NCBI RefSeq assembly: GCF_001636345.1
Contig: NZ_KV440945.1
Location: 491,340-555,339, forward strand
Direction: 5' to 3'
Origin: Cytobacillus gottheilii
GTDB lineage: Bacteria; Bacillota; Bacilli; Bacillales; Cytobacillaceae
Length of the DNA stretch: 64,000 bases
This document shows, piece by piece, positions 232-45,967 of the stretch (position 1 is its first letter; the number at the start of each line of letters is the position of its first letter). The translations under genes were made by a program, and so were the position numbers. The notes beneath the pieces were generated by a model, which saw only the letters and a list, made by a program, of their open reading frames with translations, was not told the DNA's origin and did not search any database.

Positions 232-258
232 TCTACCTGTCTCAGGAGTGTGAAGACA

Positions 259-831
259 ATGGCGGAAGAATTGCAGACATGGAAAAAAGAGCTCGATGAG
301 ATTGTTGAGCAATTTTTACAAACAGTTTCTCTAAATGAAAAAAGTGTGGTTGTCATCGGCTGCAGCACAAGTGAGGTTGCTGGAAGCAGGATCGGTACGG
401 CTGGAACAGAGCAGGTGGCAGAGATGATTTATCATTCACTGCAGAAATTGATCAGTGAGACGGGAGCTTCCCTGGCATTTCAATGCTGTGAACACTTGAA
501 CCGGGCAATTGTGATCGAGAGGCAGGCTGCTGAGTTTAAAGGGTGGGAAGAAGTCAGCGTCGTTCCCGTTCGAACAGCTGGAGGTGCCATGGCGACCTAT
601 GCTTACGGCTCAATGAACGACCCTGTAGTTGTGGAACATATAAAAGCTGATGCAGGCATTGACATAGGTGACACATTCATTGGCATGCATTTAAAACATG
701 TAGCGGTTCCTATTCGAACCATGCAGAAAAATGTTGGTGCAGCACATGTCACACTGGCAACAACACGGCCTAAATTAATCGGCGGAGTACGAGCTGTCTA
801 TGAAAAAAAGACAGAAAATGAATCATGCTAA
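259..831 (+). CDS. ywlG: YwlG, TIGR01440 / DUF436 family protein (UPF0340)
   Basis: A cytoplasmic protein of 190 aa from a family conserved in Bacilli but without an established function. Recognisable stretches are VVIGCSTSEVAGSRIGTAG near the N-terminus, FQCCEHLNRA in the middle and GDTFIGMHLKHVAVPIR near the end. The start was placed at ATG 259 because AGGAG at 244-248 lies 10 nt upstream; the in-frame GTG at 250 sits right against that Shine-Dalgarno sequence. It follows rpiB by 27 nt and a strong terminator follows its stop codon, so it ends this transcription unit. No signal peptide or membrane segment is visible. Confidence 0.9.
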   Translation: MAEELQTWKKELDEIVEQFLQTVSLNEKSVVVIGCSTSEVAGSRIGTAGTEQVAEMIYHSLQKLISETGASLAFQCCEHLNRAIVIERQAAEFKGWEEVSVVPVRTAGGAMATYAYGSMNDPVVVEHIKADAGIDIGDTFIGMHLKHVAVPIRTMQKNVGAAHVTLATTRPKLIGGVRAVYEKKTENESC

Positions 832-857
832 CCTTTGCGTATGCAAAGGTTTTTTTA
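831..857 (+). terminator. Rho-independent terminator after ywlG
   Basis: A perfect 8-bp stem, ACCTTTGC with GCAAAGGT, and a 4-nt loop are followed by seven T. It overlaps the ywlG stop codon. The phased repeat array begins 24 nt further on. Confidence 0.9.
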
Positions 858-880
858 TGAGCTGAAGTTAGGCTTGGTTG

Positions 881-1110
881 GCGAATATATTTCTATTACG
901 GCGAAAAAAATGTAATAACGGCGAAAAAACCCATTTTACGGCGAAAAAAACGTAATAACGGCGAAAAAACCTATTTAACGGCGAATAAAACATAATAACG
1001 GCGAATAAAACTATTTGACGGCGAAAAAAACGTAATAACGGCGAAAAAACCCATTTTACGGCGAAAAAAACGTAATAACGGCGAAAAAACCCATTTAACG
1101 GCGAATATCT
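881..1110 (+). repeat. Phased 20-nt repeat array, family A copy 1 (11.5 units)
   Basis: Eleven units of exactly 20 nt plus a terminal half unit, with no indel. Each unit starts with GCGAA(A/T) and a run of A and ends in ACG. Spacers alternate between a CGTAATA type and a CCATTTT type, giving a 40-nt super-period. The first and last cores read GCGAATAT, unlike the internal GCGAAAAA or GCGAATAAA. A 20-nt period is not a multiple of three, so the array is not coding. Related arrays occur at 22982-23092 and 30375-30444, with the same boundary cores and a similar left flank (AGTT..G..TTGGCG). Confidence 0.93.
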
Positions 1111-2729: not shown

Positions 2730-4620
2730 GTGTGCCCGGCATGGGTGCAGGCTCTAGGGTGCGAGTCCCGAACGGCGAAGGCAGTAGTAGCCGTAGCTTA
2801 AGACAAGGATATGCGGGGTGACCCTCCTATCTGAAGGAAGTCGGCGGCAAACTTCCGCTCTGAGGAACACGAATCTCATATGAGGCTAGATGACATTGGG
2901 TGAGTCTGCAATACAAGACAAAGTCCATACTGCCAAAGGTGTCACATAGTAAATGAGGCGGAGACATGGAAGGAAAGTCTGTACTCTTACCCGGGGAGAA
3001 CCTGTCGATATGCCGTACTCATGCGGTAAGCCTATCCGTGAGGATAAGTTGAACGACAGGCGTCAGCAGAAGCCATAGTACTTATTCGCTTAAGAGGATA
3101 AGGAAGGGCTGAACCGGTTATGGAAAATAGGAACTAGGCGTATCTTTCCATTCGATGAAACAGAAAACATAGTACCTGTTTAATGAAAGAAACGGTGAAT
3201 CCGCGGGGGTCATTAAACAGGGTGGAGAATGAAAAGGACACAAACAGAACACCTATTTACGCGGGAGGTTATATCAATGTTAATGGAACGAATCATGTCA
3301 CGGGAAAACCTACTTAATGCGATTAAAAGAGTAGAAAAGAATAAGGGAAAACATGGAGTGGACGAAATGCCCGTCACTGCTCTTCGTGGACATATTATGC
3401 TCAACTGGAGCGAACTGCGAAAATCCCTCTTCGAGGGAACCTATATCCCATCCCCCGTCCGTCGAGTCGAAATCCCGAAACCAGACGGCAAAGGGAAGAG
3501 GAAACTGGGAATCCCAACCGTGACAGACCGTTTCATTCAACAAGCAATCACCCAAGTGCTTACCAGAATGTATGACCCTAGTTTCTCTGAATGTAGCTTC
3601 GGCTTTCGCCCTAACAGGCGAGCGCACCAGGCTGTTAAATTAGCCCAAAGCTATATAGAAGAGGGTTATCGATGGGTAGTCGACATTGACCTTGAAAAGT
3701 TCTTTGACAAGGTTAACCACGATAGATTAATGAGTAAATTAGCCATGAGGATAAAGGATAGTACTCTCCTCAAACTAATAAGACGGTTCTTAACCTCTGG
3801 TGTTATGGAAGGCGGACTTGTCAGTCCTAACCTTGAGGGGACACCGCAAGGTGGACCTTTAAGCCCTTTACTTTCGAATATTGTGTTGGATGAACTGGAT
3901 AAAGAACTGGAGCGCAGAGGACATCGCTTTGTCCGCTACGCCGATGATTGTAATATCTATGTGAAATCTAAAAGAGCTGGAGAAAGAGTTATGAAGGCAA
4001 TGACCCATTTTATCGAGAGGAATCTTAAACTGAAGGTTAACAAGGATAAAAGTGCTGTAGACCGCCCTTGGAAAAGGAAATTTCTTGGGTTCAGTTTTAC
4101 AAGTAATCTAAAACCGAAGGTGAGAATATCTCCCCAATCAGTTAAACGGTTTAAAGATAAAATAAGAAAGCTTACAAGCAGACGAAGGTCAATTGCCATG
4201 GAAGATAGGATTCATAACCTTAACCAATATCTAGTGGGATGGGTTAATTATTATCATTTAGCAGATACCCGTTCAGTAATCGCAAAACTCGAAGGATGGC
4301 TTAATCGAAGGTTAAGAATGATTCGATGGAAGGAATGGAAACTTCCCCAAACGAAGGTCAAGAAACTTATTAAACTAGGTGTTTCGAAAGGGAAAGCATA
4401 TGAATGGGGAAATACAAGAAAGGCTTATTGGAGGATATCCAAAAGTCCAATTCTTCATAAAACATTAGGGAAAGCCTACTGGCTTTCCCTTGGGTTAAAA
4501 AGTATTTCTGCTAGATATGACTTACAGCGTTCGACTTAATCGGAACCGCCGTATACGGAACCGTACGTACGGTGGTGTGAGAGGGATAAATGGAGGTTAA
4601 TCGCCTCCCCCTATCTCAAT
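2730..4620 (+). mobile_element. Group IIC intron 1, full length (about 1.89 kb)
   Basis: A retroelement ribozyme with an intact maturase. The 5' end GTGTGCCCGGCATGGGTGC matches the 5' end of the second intron at 21080. Domain V is at about 4550-4601, where GAACCGCCGTATAC folds on GTACGTACGGTGGTGTG around a GAAC loop. Domain VI follows (GGAGG...CCTCC) and the intron ends in CTCAAT at about 4620 (AY rule). The encoded protein lacks an endonuclease domain and the element sits behind an intrinsic terminator, both hallmarks of class C. The exact 3' end is inferred by alignment with intron 2. Confidence 0.9.
3277..4539 (+). CDS. ltrA: Group IIC intron-encoded reverse transcriptase/maturase
   Basis: A 420-aa protein that splices its host intron and reverse-transcribes it at a new site (target-primed retrotransposition, or priming from nascent strands in class C). 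RT motifs are in order: KPDGKGKRKLGIPTVTDR, FGFRPNRRAH, DIDLEKFFDKVNHD, EGTPQGGPLSPLLSNI, the catalytic YADD in RYADDCNIY, and the thumb/maturase X region with LNQYLVGWVNYY. There is no H-N-H endonuclease domain. Length and sequence resemble the Geobacillus GsI-IIC enzyme. ATG 3277 was chosen because GGGAGG (3263-3268) lies 8 nt upstream; the frame is open back to 3229 without a better site. All key residues are intact, so it is probably active. Confidence 0.95.
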   Translation: MLMERIMSRENLLNAIKRVEKNKGKHGVDEMPVTALRGHIMLNWSELRKSLFEGTYIPSPVRRVEIPKPDGKGKRKLGIPTVTDRFIQQAITQVLTRMYDPSFSECSFGFRPNRRAHQAVKLAQSYIEEGYRWVVDIDLEKFFDKVNHDRLMSKLAMRIKDSTLLKLIRRFLTSGVMEGGLVSPNLEGTPQGGPLSPLLSNIVLDELDKELERRGHRFVRYADDCNIYVKSKRAGERVMKAMTHFIERNLKLKVNKDKSAVDRPWKRKFLGFSFTSNLKPKVRISPQSVKRFKDKIRKLTSRRRSIAMEDRIHNLNQYLVGWVNYYHLADTRSVIAKLEGWLNRRLRMIRWKEWKLPQTKVKKLIKLGVSKGKAYEWGNTRKAYWRISKSPILHKTLGKAYWLSLGLKSISARYDLQRST

Positions 4621-20015: not shown

Positions 20016-21035
20016 ATGACAAAAATCAAACCATTCATTCTACTAGCGTCGATTCTCTTTGCCGTCACGATCATTGTTCCGTCTCTTCTGGTTATCCCAT
20101 TTTCAAATAATGAAGAGACAGGAAAGCTGGATGAAGAACTGGAAGAAACAGTGGCTGAACCAGCAGGCACTGAACCTGCCATTGAAGTGGCTGTGTTCCG
20201 AACAGCGACAAAAAAGGTTGAAAACCTGGCAATGGAAGATTATTTAGTTGGAGTCGTATCAGCTGAGATGCCTGCAGAGTTTGAAGATGAAGCTTTAAAA
20301 GCACAGGCGCTGACAGCACGAACCTATATTGTTCAGCATCTAATGAAGGATCAAGATCTGAATATTCCTGGAGATGCACAAGTGTATGATACGGTCGATC
20401 ATCAGGTATATAAAAATAAAGAAGAGCTAAAGAAGCAGTGGAAAGAAGAATATGACTCTAATATTAAGAAGGTGACTGAAGCTGTTCGTGCTACAGCAGG
20501 TCAGATCCTTACTTATGAAGGGAATCCTATACAGGCACAATTCTTTTCAACGAGCAATGGCTTTACCGAAAATTCAGAGTCGGTATGGACAAATGCCATT
20601 CCCTACTTAAAAAGTGTTGAGAGCCCATGGGATCAGAAATCACCAGAGTTTACAGATCAACTGGTCATAGCAGTGCCCGATTTTGAAGCAAAGCTGGGCG
20701 TGTCATTGCCGGAAGGTCCAGCAATCGGAAGTGTAACAGAACGAACAGCAGGAAAAAGAGTCTCCAAGGTGAATATTAATGGTAAGGAATTAAAAGGTGT
20801 CGATATCCGTGAAAAACTAGGATTAAGATCAACCGATTTTACATGGGAAAGAAAAGGCGATAATGTGGTCATTCAAACAAAGGGCTATGGACATGGTGTT
20901 GGCATGAGCCAATACGGAGCCAATGGCATGGCTGCAGAAGGAAAAACATATAAAGAAATCGTCAATCATTATTATAAGGGAGTCGAGATCTCAACGTCTG
21001 ATACGATGCTCGCTAAAGTGATGGCGAAAAAATAG
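20016..21035 (+). CDS. spoIID: Stage II sporulation protein D, peptidoglycan lytic transglycosylase
   Basis: A 339-aa mother-cell membrane enzyme which, with SpoIIM and SpoIIP, drives engulfment by cleaving stripped glycan strands. A single N-terminal membrane anchor (about residues 7-28) is followed by the SpoIID domain. Conserved stretches include [20 protein letters not shown] (catalytic Glu region), [20 protein letters not shown] and [17 protein letters not shown] near the end. GGAGG precedes ATG 20016. The SigE-like promoter upstream fits the known control. Confidence 0.95.
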
Positions 21036-21045
21036 ACAGAAACAA

Positions 21046-21079
21046 AAGAGCCGCCGAAGGCATTCGGCGGCTCTTGCTG
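21046..21079 (+). terminator. Terminator after spoIID; insertion site of intron 2
   Basis: AAGAGCCGCCGAA (21046-21058) pairs perfectly with TTCGGCGGCTCTT (21063-21075). The group II intron begins at 21080 where the T-rich tail would continue. Confidence 0.92.
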
Positions 21080-22964
21080 GTGCGCCCGGCATGGGTGCAA
21101 TCTATAGGGTGCAAGTCCCGAGCCACGAAGGCAGTAGTAGTGGTTAGCTTAACGCAAGGGTGTCCGCGGCGACGCGGAATCTGAAGGAAGCGAGCGGCAA
21201 ACCTCCGGTCTGAGGAACACGAACTTCATACAAGGCTAGGTATCATTGGATGAGTTTGCCAGACAAAACAAAGTCCTTACTGCCGAAGGTGGTACAGAGT
21301 AAATGGAGCAGATAGATGGAGGGAAAGATTGTACTCTTACCCGGGGAGGTCTGGTTGGTACGCCAAGTACACTTGGTAACCTATCTAGAAATAGATAGCT
21401 GAACAACCAGAAGTCAGCAGAGGTCATAGTACCTTACCTACTCGAGACGGTAAGGGAAGGACTGAACAATTAGGAAGAACGAGAACTAGGCATACAATTC
21501 CTGTGTAGAAGCAGACAATCCGAAAGGACTTACTTGAAGGAGGAAGTGGTGAATCCACAGGGGACTTCATGAGGGTGGAGCAGGAATAACATAATTAGAC
21601 TTCTACGTTCACGTCGAAAGGAAATATCACATGTTAATGAATCTGATTCTGTCACGGGAAAACTTAATAGAAGCACTTAAACGTGTGGAGAAGAACAAAG
21701 GAAGTCACGGCATAGATGGAATGTCCGTAAAATCCCTACGAAGACATCTCTATGAAAACTGGGACACCCTATGTGACTCTTTAAGGAAGGGTACCTATCA
21801 GCCTACCCCAGTCCGTCGAGTCGAAATCCCGAAACCGAACGGTGGAGTAAGATTACTAGGAATACCGACCGTGACAGACCGGTTCATTCAACAGGCAATT
21901 GCCCAAGTTTTAACCCCACTTTTTGACCCAATCTTCTCAGAACATAGTTATGGGTTCAGGCCAAGCCGAAGAGGCCATGACGCTGTTCGTAAAGCAAGGG
22001 GATACATAAGTGAAGGTTATAGGTGGGTGATTGATATGGACTTGGAGAAGTTCTTTGACAAAGTGAATCATGATAAGTTGATGGGGATATTGGCAAGCAG
22101 AATCCAAGACCGATTGGTCTTGAAATTAATACGGAAATATCTCCAAGCAGGAATCATGATAAATGGTGTAGTCTACGATGCAGAAGAAGGAACACCACAA
22201 GGAGGCCCCCTGAGCCCTCTTCTTTCGAATATCCTTTTGGATAAGCTTGATAAAGAGTTAGAAAGGAGAGGTCACAAGTTTGTCCGCTACGCCGATGATT
22301 GTAATATCTACATGAAATCGAAGAAAGCTGGAGAACGTGTGATGAACTCGATTACATGTTTTATTGAGCAGAAATTAAAGCTCAAAGTGAACAGGGATAA
22401 ATCAGCGGTTGACCGCCCGTGGAAACGAAAGTTCCTTGGCTTTAGCTTTACGATTAATAAGAAACCGAAGGTTCGAATAGCCAACGAAAGTATTAAAAGG
22501 CTTAAAGCTAAAATACGAGAGTTAACCTCCCGTTCCAAATCCATTTCCATGGAAGGTAGAATTGAGAAACTAAATCAATATCTAACGGGATGGTGTGGAT
22601 ATTTTGCATTAGCCGATACACCTAGCAAATTTAAAGAATTTGATGAGTGGATTAGGAGAAGACTTCGTATGATTGAATGGAAACAATGGAAGAATCCGGG
22701 GACAAGAGTAAGAAAACTCAAGGGCTTAGGTGTTCCAGACCAAAAGGCATACGAATGGGGAAACTCCAGAAAGAGATATTGGAGAATAGCCTCTAGTCCG
22801 GTTCTAAACAAAACCCTCAATAACTCTTATTGGAGTAATCGAGGGCTCAAAAGTCTATATCAAAGATATGAATTTCTACGTCAAACTTAATTGAACCGCC
22901 GTATACCGAACGGTACGTACGGTGGTGTGAGAGGTCGGGGGTTAGTCACCCCCTCCTACTCGAT
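21080..22964 (+). mobile_element. Group IIC intron 2, full length (about 1.89 kb)
   Basis: A second complete class C intron. The 5' end GTGCGCCCGGCATGGGTGC is followed by conserved domain I sequence (AAGTCCCGAGCC, GGCAGTAGTAG, TCTGAGGAACACGAA). Domain V lies at about 22891-22935 (GAACCGCCGTATACC, GAAC loop, GGTACGTACGGTGGTGTG), and domain VI ends in CTACTCGAT at 22964. It differs clearly from intron 1 along its length, so the two represent separate arrivals or an old duplication. Without it the spoIID terminator would abut the family A repeat array that follows. Confidence 0.9.
21631..22890 (+). CDS. ltrA: Group IIC intron-encoded reverse transcriptase/maturase
   Basis: A 419-aa maturase/RT of the same class as the protein of intron 1 but with many substitutions. 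It has all RT motifs: KPNGGVRLLGIPTVTDRF, YGFRPSRRGHDAV, DMDLEKFFDKVNHDKL, EGTPQGGPLSPLLSNILLD and catalytic RYADDCNIY, then the maturase domain with LNQYLTGWCGYF. No endonuclease domain follows. The ATG at 21631 has AAAGGA upstream. Nothing is truncated, so it should be functional. The product supports splicing and spread of the intron RNA. Confidence 0.95.
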   Translation: MLMNLILSRENLIEALKRVEKNKGSHGIDGMSVKSLRRHLYENWDTLCDSLRKGTYQPTPVRRVEIPKPNGGVRLLGIPTVTDRFIQQAIAQVLTPLFDPIFSEHSYGFRPSRRGHDAVRKARGYISEGYRWVIDMDLEKFFDKVNHDKLMGILASRIQDRLVLKLIRKYLQAGIMINGVVYDAEEGTPQGGPLSPLLSNILLDKLDKELERRGHKFVRYADDCNIYMKSKKAGERVMNSITCFIEQKLKLKVNRDKSAVDRPWKRKFLGFSFTINKKPKVRIANESIKRLKAKIRELTSRSKSISMEGRIEKLNQYLTGWCGYFALADTPSKFKEFDEWIRRRLRMIEWKQWKNPGTRVRKLKGLGVPDQKAYEWGNSRKRYWRIASSPVLNKTLNNSYWSNRGLKSLYQRYEFLRQT

Positions 22965-22981
22965 CGGTAAAGTTGGGTTTG

Positions 22982-23092
22982 GCGAATATATTATTATTTT
23001 GGGCGAAAAACTGGAGATAACGGCGAAAATAATGTTTTAACAGCGAATAAGTTTATGCTAACGGCGAATATATTTCCAGGACAGCGAATATC
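22982..23092 (+). repeat. Phased repeat array, family A copy 2 (6 cores)
   Basis: GCGAA cores start at 22982, 23003, 23023, 23043, 23064 and 23084, i.e. spacings of 21, 20, 20, 21 and 20 nt. The first and the last two cores read GCGAATAT; the inner ones are GCGAAAA or GCGAATAA, usually preceded by ACG or ACA. The left flank AAGTTGGGTTTGGCG resembles those of copies 1 and 3. It lies 17 nt behind intron 2. The rest of the gap to 23181 shows nothing recognisable. Confidence 0.85.
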
Positions 23093-30317: not shown

Positions 30318-30348
30318 AGCAGACTTTATTAGGAGGTCTGCTTTTTTT
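30318..30348 (+). terminator. Terminator after the epuA-like gene
   Basis: AGCAGACTT (30318-30326) pairs with AGGTCTGCT (30334-30342), one wobble, then T7. The third family A repeat array begins 26 nt later. Confidence 0.88.
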
Positions 30349-30374
30349 ATGTTCGGAGGGTGAGTTGGAGTTTG

Positions 30375-30444
30375 GCGGATATATTGAAATAACGGCAAAA
30401 ATAATTTTTTTACGGTGGATATATTTTCTGGACGGCGGATATCA
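30375..30444 (+). repeat. Phased repeat array, family A copy 3 (4 cores, degenerate)
   Basis: Cores GCGGATAT, GCAAAA, GTGGATAT and GCGGATAT start at 30375, 30395, 30415 and 30435, exactly 20 nt apart; the inner ones are preceded by ACG. The left flank GAGTTGGAGTTTGGCG matches copies 1 and 2. The R variant (GCGGATAT instead of GCGAATAT) is uniform at both ends, suggesting the ends evolve together. Confidence 0.75.
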
Positions 30445-42784: not shown

Positions 42785-42821
42785 TGAGAATAAAGACTTA
42801 AGATAAAAGTAACAGATGTTT

Positions 42822-42977
42822 AAAGGCAAACTTATTGAAAAATAAGGACGCAAAGCCGCGAATCTAAGGTCTGATAGACATTCTTTACCTTTGGCATGAA
42901 AGTAAAGGCTATTAGTCTTTCTGCCGAAAAGAAGGAGTATCTCTAATTATATTGGACTATGATGGTCGGGCTGCCAG
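42822..42977 (+). ncRNA. Cyclic-di-GMP-I (GEMM) riboswitch
   Basis: Elements appear in the canonical order. GGCAAAC (42825-42831) is followed by a perfect P1-type hairpin CTTATT-GAAA-AATAAG with a GNRA loop, then GGACGCAAAGCC (42846-42857). A tetraloop-receptor half TCTAAG (42863-42868) pairs across with TATGA (42958-42962), and the end GGTCGGGCTGCC (42964-42975) closes on GGC. The base at the ligand-discriminating position appears to be G, as in c-di-GMP rather than cGAMP sensors. The distal stem is extended: GTCTGATA (42869-42876) with TATTGGAC (42950-42957), enclosing about 70 nt with an inner hairpin CTTTAC/GTAAAG. No terminator follows, so control may be translational. I infer the class from memory of the consensus. 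Confidence 0.85.
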
Positions 42978-43017
42978 CATGAACGGGTGTTAAAAAAATA
43001 GACAAGGAGAGAGGACG

Positions 43018-43476: not shown

Positions 43477-45486
43477 ATGAGAAAAAGATGGTTACTGGCT
43501 ACTTCTTTCCTGATTTTTATCGTTTTAGCAGGCTGTTCAAAAGAACCTATGCCTCAAGATCAGTTTTCGCAATATATTAAACATTGGAATAACCAAGAAT
43601 TTACCGATATGTATCGTTTACTCTCTGCAAAAGCAAAGGAAACCATATCAGAGGATGACTTTGTAGATCGATATGAAAAAGTGTATAATGACCTGCAAAT
43701 CTCTGATATAGAGGTTACATCGAATGCAGACGAAGAACAGGAATTTGAGGAAGAAAGCTCAGCACTTCCCTTTTCAGCGTCAATGAATAGTGCTGCAGGA
43801 AAAATAGAATTCACACATGATGCAACACTTATAAAGGAAGAGCATGAGAATGAGGAAAATTGGTTTGTAGAGTGGGATACGACCCTTATTTTTCCAGAGC
43901 TCGGCGCTAATGACAAAATAAACTATACCTCTATCCCTGCCCAGCGCGGTGATATAATTGATCGCACCGGCGATATGCTTGCTTTTAATGGCACGCTATA
44001 TGAAATCGGCATCGTGCCGGAGGAAATGGGAAATGATGAGGAAACAACCATTAAAGGACTATCTCAGAGCTTAGGAATTTCCGAGGAGAGTATTGAAAAT
44101 GCCTTGAATGCAGATTGGGTGCAGCCTGGTCATTTTGTACCGATCAAAAGGGTTTCTCCTGATAATGAAGGGCTTCTAAATGAAGTATTTTCTCTGCCTG
44201 GTGTTTTAAAACAGGATGTGAAAGGCAGAGTCTACCCAGCTGGAGAATCAGCAGCACATTTGATTGGGTATGTTGGTCCAATTACTGCTGAAGAACTGGA
44301 GAAAAATGAAGACAAAGGCTACTCCAGTACAGATCTAATTGGAAAACGGGGCCTTGAACAAGTACTGGAAACGCAGCTAAAAGGAACAAATGGCATTAAA
44401 ATCAGCATTACGAAAGAAGACGGATCAGAGGCAGTGCTGGCGGAGAAGCCGGTTGAAAATGGAGAAAAGATTCAGCTGACAATAGATTTAACTGTCCAAG
44501 AAGATCTATATGAGGAATTGAAGGGCAGTGCCGGCACTGCATCCGCCATTGACCCAGTTACAGGTGCGACAATGGCGTTAGTGAGCAGTCCAAGCTTTGA
44601 CCCAAATGCTGCTTCATTAGGATTAACAGTACAAGAGTGGAAGACGCTCGAAGAAAATGAGCAGCAGCCGCTCCTTAACCGTTTCAGTCATAACTATGTG
44701 CCAGGCTCAGTTATGAAACCAATCACAGGAGCGATTGGCCTTGAAGAGGGAATCACAACAGCAGACGAAACAAAGGATATTAAAGGTCTGCGCTGGCAAA
44801 AGGACACCTCATGGGGAAGTTATCGAGTCACACGGGTAAAAGATCCGGGTTCACCAGTCAATTTCGACCAGGCTATGATGTACTCTGACAACATTTATTT
44901 TGCTCAAGAAGCATTGCAGTTAGGCAAGGATTCTTTCATGGAAGGGTTAAAAGCATTTGGCTTTGAAGAAGAAATCCCATATGTGTATCCGCTTCAATCT
45001 TCACATACAGGCAACATGGACACTGAAATAAAACTGGCAGATTCCGGTTATGGTCAAGGTGAAGTGGAAATGAATATCCTCCACCTTGCTGCCAGCTACA
45101 CACCATTCATAAATAAAGGTTCACTCATTAAGCCGGTTTTGTTAGAAAACGAAGAAAAAAACCAAGTTTGGAAAGAAAATATCATTAGTGAAGAAACCGT
45201 AGCTATAATGAATTCGGCTTTACGAAAAGTCATCCAAGAGCCAGGCGGAACAGGCCGTGCTGCCAAAATGGACGATTACCCGCTCGCCGGAAAAACCGGC
45301 ACAGCCGAGCTTAAGTTAAATGTAGGCATGAAAGGTCAGGAAAATGGGATGTTTGTTGCCTACAATCCAGATTCGCCAAAGCTGCTCATTGCCATGATGA
45401 TTGAAAGTGTAGAAGACGCAGGCGGATCCGGAATCGTTGTGGAAAAAGTGAAAAATGTATTTGAGAAGAATATGGAGCGGTTCTAA
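43477..45486 (+). CDS. Penicillin-binding transpeptidase, MecA/PBP3 type lipoprotein
   Basis: A class B PBP of 669 aa that cross-links peptidoglycan. It has a lipobox LAGC (Cys20), an NTF2-like MecA_N domain (about 25-145), a PBP dimerisation domain (about 150-320) beginning PAQRGDIIDRTGD, and a transpeptidase domain. The active-site motifs are SVMK (Ser411, Lys414), SDN (470-472) and KTGTAE (606-611). This architecture is that of B. subtilis PBP3 (pbpC) and staphylococcal PBP2a; such enzymes often bind beta-lactams weakly, so it may contribute to intrinsic tolerance (inference). AGGAGGGGG precedes the ATG. It is monocistronic. Confidence 0.92.
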   Translation: MRKRWLLATSFLIFIVLAGCSKEPMPQDQFSQYIKHWNNQEFTDMYRLLSAKAKETISEDDFVDRYEKVYNDLQISDIEVTSNADEEQEFEEESSALPFSASMNSAAGKIEFTHDATLIKEEHENEENWFVEWDTTLIFPELGANDKINYTSIPAQRGDIIDRTGDMLAFNGTLYEIGIVPEEMGNDEETTIKGLSQSLGISEESIENALNADWVQPGHFVPIKRVSPDNEGLLNEVFSLPGVLKQDVKGRVYPAGESAAHLIGYVGPITAEELEKNEDKGYSSTDLIGKRGLEQVLETQLKGTNGIKISITKEDGSEAVLAEKPVENGEKIQLTIDLTVQEDLYEELKGSAGTASAIDPVTGATMALVSSPSFDPNAASLGLTVQEWKTLEENEQQPLLNRFSHNYVPGSVMKPITGAIGLEEGITTADETKDIKGLRWQKDTSWGSYRVTRVKDPGSPVNFDQAMMYSDNIYFAQEALQLGKDSFMEGLKAFGFEEEIPYVYPLQSSHTGNMDTEIKLADSGYGQGEVEMNILHLAASYTPFINKGSLIKPVLLENEEKNQVWKENIISEETVAIMNSALRKVIQEPGGTGRAAKMDDYPLAGKTGTAELKLNVGMKGQENGMFVAYNPDSPKLLIAMMIESVEDAGGSGIVVEKVKNVFEKNMERF

Positions 45487-45527: not shown

Positions 45528-45582
45528 TGGGGGATAAATGGATGAGGATGTTTTTGCGTTTGGTTGGGGGGATTTTTGCAGT

Positions 45583-45700
45583 TTGATAGGAAAAATGAAA
45601 AATTTGATAGGAAACGGCTGCGAATTGATAGGAAAGCCAAAAATTTTGATAGGAAAACCGAAAATTTTGATGGAAAAACCTAAAATATTGATAGAAACCG
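45583..45700 (+). repeat. Phased 21-nt repeat array, family B (6 units)
   Basis: TTGATAGGAAA cores start at 45583, 45604, 45625, 45646, 45667 and 45688: exactly 21 nt apart with no indel. The last two cores are diverged (TTGATGGAAAA, TTGATAGAAAC). Spacers are variable but share CCRAAAATT. The period equals seven codons, so an open frame reads heptapeptides (LIGKPKI), but that frame has no ribosome binding site. It lies 56 nt behind the PBP terminator. Confidence 0.92.
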
Positions 45701-45810
45701 AGTCCCGCCCTTCCTTAAAAAGGAGTATCCTCCCGCTTTTTTAAGAGAAGAATAATAAAATTGAGCCCTATCGCTTTTAAATTAGCCAAAAAAGGCGTAA
45801 AACTGTTAAA

Positions 45811-45967
45811 ATGATCGAAAAATCTCTAAAAATGATCGAAAAACAAACGGAAATGATCTAGAAGTTCTCCTGAATGATTGAAATACAAATCAAAATGATC
45901 GAAAAGCTCTCCAGAATGATCGAAATACAAACCAAAATGACCGAAAAGCACATACAAATGACCGAAA
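45811..45967 (+). repeat. Phased 21-nt repeat array, family C (8 units)
   Basis: ATGATCGAAA cores, usually preceded by AA, start at 45811, 45832, 45853, 45874, 45895, 45916, 45937 and 45958: eight units, always 21 nt. Variants are ATGATCTAGA, ATGATTGAAA and ATGACCGAAA. Spacers differ (AATCTCTAAA, AAGCTCTCCAGA, TACAAACCAAA). The core is unrelated to families A and B except for the closing GAAA. It shares one intergenic gap with family B, ahead of the SIS gene. Plus-strand reading meets stops. Confidence 0.92.

Follow-up and report, generated by a model that had tools for sequence, protein, structure and literature searches.

Phased arrays of an 8-nt core behind terminators in Cytobacillus gottheilii, and related arrays in Bacillaceae and Planococcaceae

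Rows of short direct repeats, mostly four to twelve near-identical sites over about 70-230 bp, lie just behind terminators along the chromosome of Cytobacillus gottheilii, oriented as the gene that precedes them. The sites recur every 20-21 nt and share an 8-nt core that is nearly uniform within an array and changes slowly, and the arrays at two unlinked loci of one genome use the same version of this core, its dialect. The account that we prefer, though with less than even confidence, is that these are rows of DNA sites read by a factor with a drifting preference, and that they mark the ends of transcription units. The factor itself, its cooperativity and its role as a boundary are the parts of this account that we infer from the comparison of sequences.

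Arrays of the window and of the chromosome

The analysis started from a stretch of 64 kb (the window), in which a sequence-only reading had singled out three arrays. All three are real, with 12, 6 and 4 cores at steps of 20 or 21 nt, and the pattern GCGAA-N15-GCGAA, with at most one mismatch, matches the window 16 times, whereas 100 shuffles give 4.6 matches on average and 10 at most. Array 1 (880..1107, + strand) is made of 12 cores GGCGAATA/GGCGAAAA, all at steps of 20 nt, and its spacers alternate with a period of 40; it follows a gene of the TIGR01440 family (250..831, +) and its intrinsic terminator (830..851, +). Array 2 (22981..23090, +) has six cores of the [GA]GCGA[AT]A type at steps of 21, 20, 20, 21 and 20. 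It belongs to the terminator stem-loop (21048..21073, +) of spoIID (20016..21035, +), the upstream gene before a group II intron came to stand between them (21080..22964, +, with its start read from the sequence, Rfam domains at 21163-22964 and an RT ORF at 21631-22890); in the related genome G010 the intron is absent and the array directly follows the intact terminator. Array 3 (30374..30441, +), with four cores GGCGGATA/GGCAAAAA/GGTGGATA/GGCGGATA at steps of 20, is preceded by a stem-loop with a T-run (30318..30342, +). A further array of the same architecture with another core, TTTGATAGGAAA, lies at 45582..45701 (+, period 21), a terminator-like hairpin being visible by eye before it, and yet another, with core AATGATCGAAA, at 45808..45967 (+, period 21, or 42). 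An Rfam scan of the window at the gathering score gave seven matches, none of them over the arrays.

Two other features of the window may be recorded here. A second group II intron occupies 2730-4620 (Rfam domains 2812-4620, ORF 3229-4539); it too starts close behind a hairpin of terminator type, one that follows the ORF at 1438-2679. A c-di-GMP-I riboswitch (42815-42978) lies upstream of the ORF at 43477-45486.

To limit the family, called A here, to three loci was an understatement, for this genome (G000) holds about 21 of them: a genome-wide pattern search gave about 20, to which a 50-position sequence model added one clear and one weak locus. When three mismatches are allowed, most matches of the pattern are due to chance (the strands give 75 and 33, those of a reversed control 62 and 65); only the matches that chained with others were kept as family A, and a trimer sequence model was then applied. 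The elements run from GTTT through GGCG[AG]ATA cores to a last core that mostly ends in ATATC, with steps of 20 nt, the first usually of 21, and with spacers whose types can be recognised and succeed one another in a fixed order. The conserved ends first described in the window stand in part. Outer cores reading GCGRATAT with differing inner ones are mostly found there, core 5 of array 2 also reading GCGAATAT; genome-wide the description suits the last core, the first being usually followed by AAA and not TAT. In the left flank given as AGTTGG..TTTGGCG, GTTTGGCG is general, with few exceptions, and AGTTGG is not.

That these elements are bounded, phased, oriented and linked to terminators is borne out along the whole genome. 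All 21 arrays share their strand with the closest upstream ORF (counting those of 50 aa or more), which stops 13-99 nt before them. One of these ORFs is that of the intron, and three, being only 52-62 aa long, are perhaps not genes; in the three short cases (L042b, L043, L052) the strand also agrees with that of the next gene of 80 aa or more. Downstream, the next gene may be on either strand. An intrinsic terminator, hairpin and T-run, stands 12-55 nt before the array in 18 of the 21 (a script looking within 130 nt counts 19, one of its matches, at L098, lying inside a gene); of 345 background genes, 141 have such a site no more than 130 nt beyond the stop. The arrays that lack one are the second copy behind enolase, the array of L098, where the terminator comes after the array, and array 2 of the window, whose terminator is 1.9 kb away, beyond the group II intron. 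Among the upstream genes tested are purA, pta, degV, eno, sufB, dnaI, tcdA-like, mtaB, TIGR01440 and spoIID. Array rows that have the orientation of their upstream gene number 25 of 26 in G010 and 27 of 30 in other Cytobacillus, 11 of the latter coming from the survey of enolase described below; in other genera some arrays are listed on both strands, and the 55 rows there are not 55 arrays.

An orientation fixed relative to the upstream gene would also suit an RNA element, a repeat bound by a protein or processed in read-through transcripts. We find this improbable: the arrays lie past the terminator in the 18 cases just mentioned, and folding compared with shuffles gives no consistent gain, one array in 11 having a z below -2 and the 12-core array folding worse than all of its 200 shuffles. 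RNA structure was rejected on this account as the basis of the arrays. The 'selected structure' that had been proposed for them is thus unsupported as RNA, and what the slow change of the cores and their identity within arrays suggest is a constraint at the level of DNA or sequence.

Transposons offer another comparison. Tn7-like elements insert behind conserved genes, and sites phased near 21 bp, in a fixed orientation behind such genes, might be the relics or ends of a transposon with phased transposase sites. The arrays that were read, however, show no second end in inverted orientation, and the some 21 loci have different upstream genes; we consider this origin very unlikely. Tn7-like ends were set aside, as was CRISPR-like acquisition. 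Plasmid and phage records, queried with one array, gave no match.

As to distribution along the chromosome, no family A match at E <= 0.001 was found in C1:1.67-3.37 Mb of G000, whose skew flips at about 2.35-2.55 Mb, nor in C4:1.47-3.43 Mb of G010. The gap covers the terminus-side third or more of both chromosomes, two observations that are not independent because these genomes share most loci. A role like that of Noc or SlmA, which the gap brings to mind, was discarded, as core genes may simply lie elsewhere.

Recurrent sites and dialects

Family A is one dialect of a wider class of arrays in Bacillaceae and Planococcaceae. With the sequence model, arrays like those of family A appear in 12 of 36 genomes of the genus (E <= 0.001), and in 18 of 193 genomes and nine of 25 genera of the family (E <= 1e-5). 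A wider scan of records gave at least 80 loci (at least 112 stretches), of which 30 with Bacillales names were examined; Neobacillus, Ureibacillus, Lysinibacillus, Mesobacillus, Planococcus and Niallia are among the genera with arrays in named records. The core changes with the species, reading GGCGRATA, GGCCGGTA, GACCGATA, CGCCGATA, CGCGGATA or GGCTAATA.

The site behind enolase is the recurrent one. In 30 chosen genomes, some picked for their model matches (only that of G184 lying at enolase itself), an array of period 19-22 follows the gene within 330 nt at 18 of 29 loci, in five genera, against a background of 6 in 1007 genes; two more loci carry 52-nt repeats, and the array of G018, visible by eye and missed by the detector, was kept out of the count. 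The cores there read GGCGAATA, GGCGGATA, GGCCGGTA, GGCCGATA, GACCGATA, CGCYGATA, CGCCGATA, CGCGGATA and GGCTAATA. In the same genomes an array lies behind pta at eight of 28 loci (two of the 30 yielded no gene end), and one was called behind dnaI in a single genome of 30, the dnaI array of G010 having a model match that the detector did not call. For ywlG, 30 loci were collected, seven without a gene end that could be found; among the 23 loci read, family A occurs only in G000 and G010, and at least six others carry repeats of about 50 nt. As the low counts at dnaI and ywlG show, a given gene can do without the element.

Enolase and pta arrays of one genome share their dialect. In the seven genomes that have both, three close pairs among them, the distance between cores is 0.062 within a genome and 0.192 between genomes, only 16 of 5040 permutations of the labels being as low; for spacers the corresponding values are 0.54 and 0.64. 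The enolase array of G013, where GGCGAATA alternates with GTCCAATA, is a case in point: the order GGCG, GGCG, GTCC, GGCG, GTCC, GGCG is the same at enolase and at pta, with different spacers.

Some peculiarities of individual loci should be added. In G013 and G004 the six-core order A,A,B,A,B,A is met at several loci (L102, L105, L106, L366, L371), again with differing spacers; A stands for GGCGAATA and B for GTCCAATA or similar, and B with GGAC before the next A forms an inverted repeat. The enolase locus of G004 looks as if it had been split by an insertion, the intact gene (C3, 23227-24519) being followed by other sequence, and a separate enolase tail with three successive arrays standing about 8 kb from it (L105, C3:28000-38000). 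L080 of G010 (C4:702000-721999) holds two successive copies of enolase with both its arrays, at a distance of 2528 bp and with an N beside one array; this is a tandem duplication or an error of assembly.

The period, about two helical turns, deserves an open test, since the count of 675 steps of 20 or 21 in 697 is conditional on a detector that takes only steps of about 19-22. A second detector accepted any 8-nt core in at least four copies at periods from 13 to 70. Applied to 1.2 Mb sampled from four genomes, with the G000 windows placed to avoid known family A loci, it found 16 arrays: ten of period 20-21 (three of them in one 2-kb stretch of L313), five of period 52 and one, within an ORF, of period 24; shuffling every stretch five times yielded a total of two chains. 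Their cores include TACCGGC, TGACCGA, TTATGAGCGA, TTTGCAAATAG, TTTTCCTATCAAA and AATGATCGAAA; the window contains the last two as well, at 45582-45701 (as the reverse complement) and 45808-45967 respectively. The arrays of period 52, about five helical turns, make up a second intergenic class in similar places, some with inverted cores such as GTCCGAA...TTCGGAC; they were seen at L297, L314 (G007), L342 (G050) and L348 (G033), at the enolase loci of G083 and G094, and at the ywlG loci of G024, G009, G032 and G007.

Two main periods near whole helical turns, and GC-rich cores alternating with AT-rich spacers over some 70-230 bp, raise the question of topology. The arrays could be preferred sites for gyrase, or for another protein that wraps DNA, absorbing supercoils behind transcribed genes, and eno, purA, pta and sufB are indeed among the genes upstream; BIMEs are the case to compare. 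Yet bendability alone would not need one core per array, nor a dialect per species, and less GC-rich cores build equal arrays. We rate this explanation as unlikely. Composition and twist were also compared between units of 20 and 21 nt. Spacer GC is 0.227 in the former and 0.344 in the latter in other species, and in G000 and G010, once shared spacers are removed, the difference is not clear (p 0.08); scales of twist give no consistent support. As a test of helical phase this comparison is weak and in part negative.

Cores, spacers and a putative reader

The contrast between core and spacer is best seen at enolase. Of the 18 arrays 17 were compared (G078 was left out), reduced to 11 when near-identical ones were removed: core mismatch is 0.08 within arrays and 0.28 between them, the values at positions 4 and 5 rising from 0.13 and 0.00 to 0.68 and 0.46. 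In the middle of the spacer, positions 4-8 are close to random in both comparisons (0.61-0.69 and 0.66-0.77), the spacer as a whole being somewhat more alike within arrays (0.46) than between them (0.62). At core position 5, which is G or A in G000, agreement within arrays reaches 0.978 in this genome, where 0.502 is expected and 0.626 is the maximum of 2000 shuffles, and 17 of 19 arrays are uniform; in G010 it is 0.855 against 0.562, with 20 of 26 arrays uniform.

Cores also change more slowly than spacers or flanks. Pairing the loci of G000 and G010 gave 19 of 19, of which L045, L046 and L049, mispaired by their upstream genes, were dropped. In the remaining 16 pairs mismatches amount to 56/679 in cores, 170/829 in spacers and 826/5234 in the downstream flank, the first figure being understated because repeats preferentially align core to core. 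In six pairs picked by the analyst for clearly alignable spacers (L040, L041, L043, L047, L050, L052), they are 4/248, 24/309 and 243/1999.

Would copying alone produce such a pattern? The main rival to our account, a possibility to be taken seriously although we lean against it, sees in the arrays dispersing passenger repeats, copied whole into the permissive space behind terminators and devoid of function for the host; their uniformity might come, and here too we are rather doubtful, from slippage, unequal exchange or short-tract conversion. Several facts agree with it. Unlinked loci of G000 and G010 have ordered spacers in common, so that copies of the arrays have probably dispersed in this lineage; the number of units differs between orthologs of the two genomes (12 versus 6, or 6 versus 11, for example); some arrays are nearly perfect tandem repeats; and array sites differ between species. 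The mobile origin proposed in the sequence-only reading finds some support in these common spacers, without a transposase or a precise empty site having come to light, and neither a mobility gene nor a target duplication was found in the partly annotated flanks. Copying of units, however, predicts spacers as uniform as cores, and 291 of 687 pairs of near-identical spacers taken from different arrays, pairs that are not independent, have opposite core classes. Without the arrays that have alike spacers, core concordance is still 0.966 against 0.505 in G000 and 0.935 against 0.626 in G010. Uniformity of the cores does not simply follow from the copying of units. Furthermore, the enolase arrays of five genera have different dialects. 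A passenger in which homogenisation is restricted to the core explains dispersal and turnover of units, but neither the uniformity of the core alone nor the recurrent enolase site.

We come back to rows of DNA sites read by a drifting factor. The arrays would be platforms acting at the level of DNA and in one direction, made of 8-nt core sites with some preference in their flanks, and following closely on the terminators of chromosomal genes; with 20-21 bp from one site to the next, they would present all sites on roughly one side of the helix. Their reader would be a DNA-binding factor that acts cooperatively and whose gene lies elsewhere. Its preference would drift between species, and this would be why unlinked arrays of one family share their dialect within a genome. 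Against this account, several dialects are found side by side in one genome, for which several readers, or a tolerant one, would be required. Acting along the direction of transcription, an occupied array would most likely mark or enforce the end of the transcription unit, perhaps by stopping or releasing polymerases that have gone past the terminator.

Extended to the whole of the Bacillaceae and Planococcaceae, the proposal becomes more tentative: there may be an unrecognised class of boundary elements of transcription units, tandem sites behind terminators, spaced by two turns of the helix, whose arrays follow the dialect of the species because sites and a putative DNA-reading factor, or its paralogs, coevolve. 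Conceivably this would proceed much as with satellite repeats and their binding proteins in eukaryotes, and the element might then be defined, as we would cautiously put it, by its self-similarity and phase and not by a fixed sequence. If a protein reads the arrays, they are a widespread and unnamed feature of the chromosome at the ends of genes, a bacterial coevolution of repeat and reader, with concerted sequence change inside arrays and from species to species. Should the arrays be passengers instead, they are a bacterial repeat in which homogenisation affects the 8-nt core but not the central part of the 12-13 nt that separate cores, something that slippage or ordinary conversion is poor at explaining. 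Either way the dialects provide a handle, as one would expect the specificity of a reader to covary with core sequence over the 36 genomes of the genus.

Comparison with known repeats

The arrays are interspersed intergenic direct repeats, of a sort for which searches of open-access full-text papers brought up no description; to this extent the earlier statement that no element of this form had been described holds good. A motif that is near-uniform within an array and different between species suggests that something in the cell may be reading it.

The REP and BIME sequences of enterobacteria are likewise repeats near the 3' ends of genes, where they cluster, but they are palindromic and form hairpins, unlike the cores found here, which are not palindromic and whose arrays, as noted, gave a single low z in folding. 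CRISPR arrays have repeats over 20 nt and spacers over 20 nt, in contrast with an 8-nt core and 12-13 nt spacers. Plasmid iterons come closer in one respect, being direct repeats about two helical turns apart, as are the arrays; iterons serve at an origin, where a replication initiator binds them, and against such a role speak the 21 or so chromosomal loci behind different genes, together with the array queried without a plasmid match.

Within Bacillaceae, the repeats bcr1-bcr18 of the Bacillus cereus group also occupy intergenic space, some of them in 3' UTRs, bcr1-3 being MITE-like according to the excerpted text of PMC3446304. By comparison with the latter, the present arrays are short phased direct repeats devoid of terminal inverted repeats: their ends, GTTTGGCG... 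and ...GGCGRATATC, are not the inverted repeats expected of a MITE. Finally, the STAR elements of Staphylococcus, as they appear in the excerpted text of Purves et al. (2012, PMC3532100), have a 14-bp core T(G/A/T)TGTTG(G/T)GGCCC(C/A), successive cores being separated by 40 bp or more, in units of about 50 nt. They too are interspersed intergenic direct repeats with a GC-rich core, locus-specific spacers and a variable number of units; their loci differ between species and their function is unknown. The spacers of our arrays are also locus-specific, though partly common between loci in G000 and G010. In contrast with what that excerpt describes, the arrays have an 8-nt core of several dialects (GGCGRATA and relatives) in units of 20-21 nt, and they are oriented behind terminators, with a dialect common to loci and a conserved site at enolase. 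STAR elements, which differ in core, spacing and placement and fail as a match on the first two, are nevertheless the nearest known kind.
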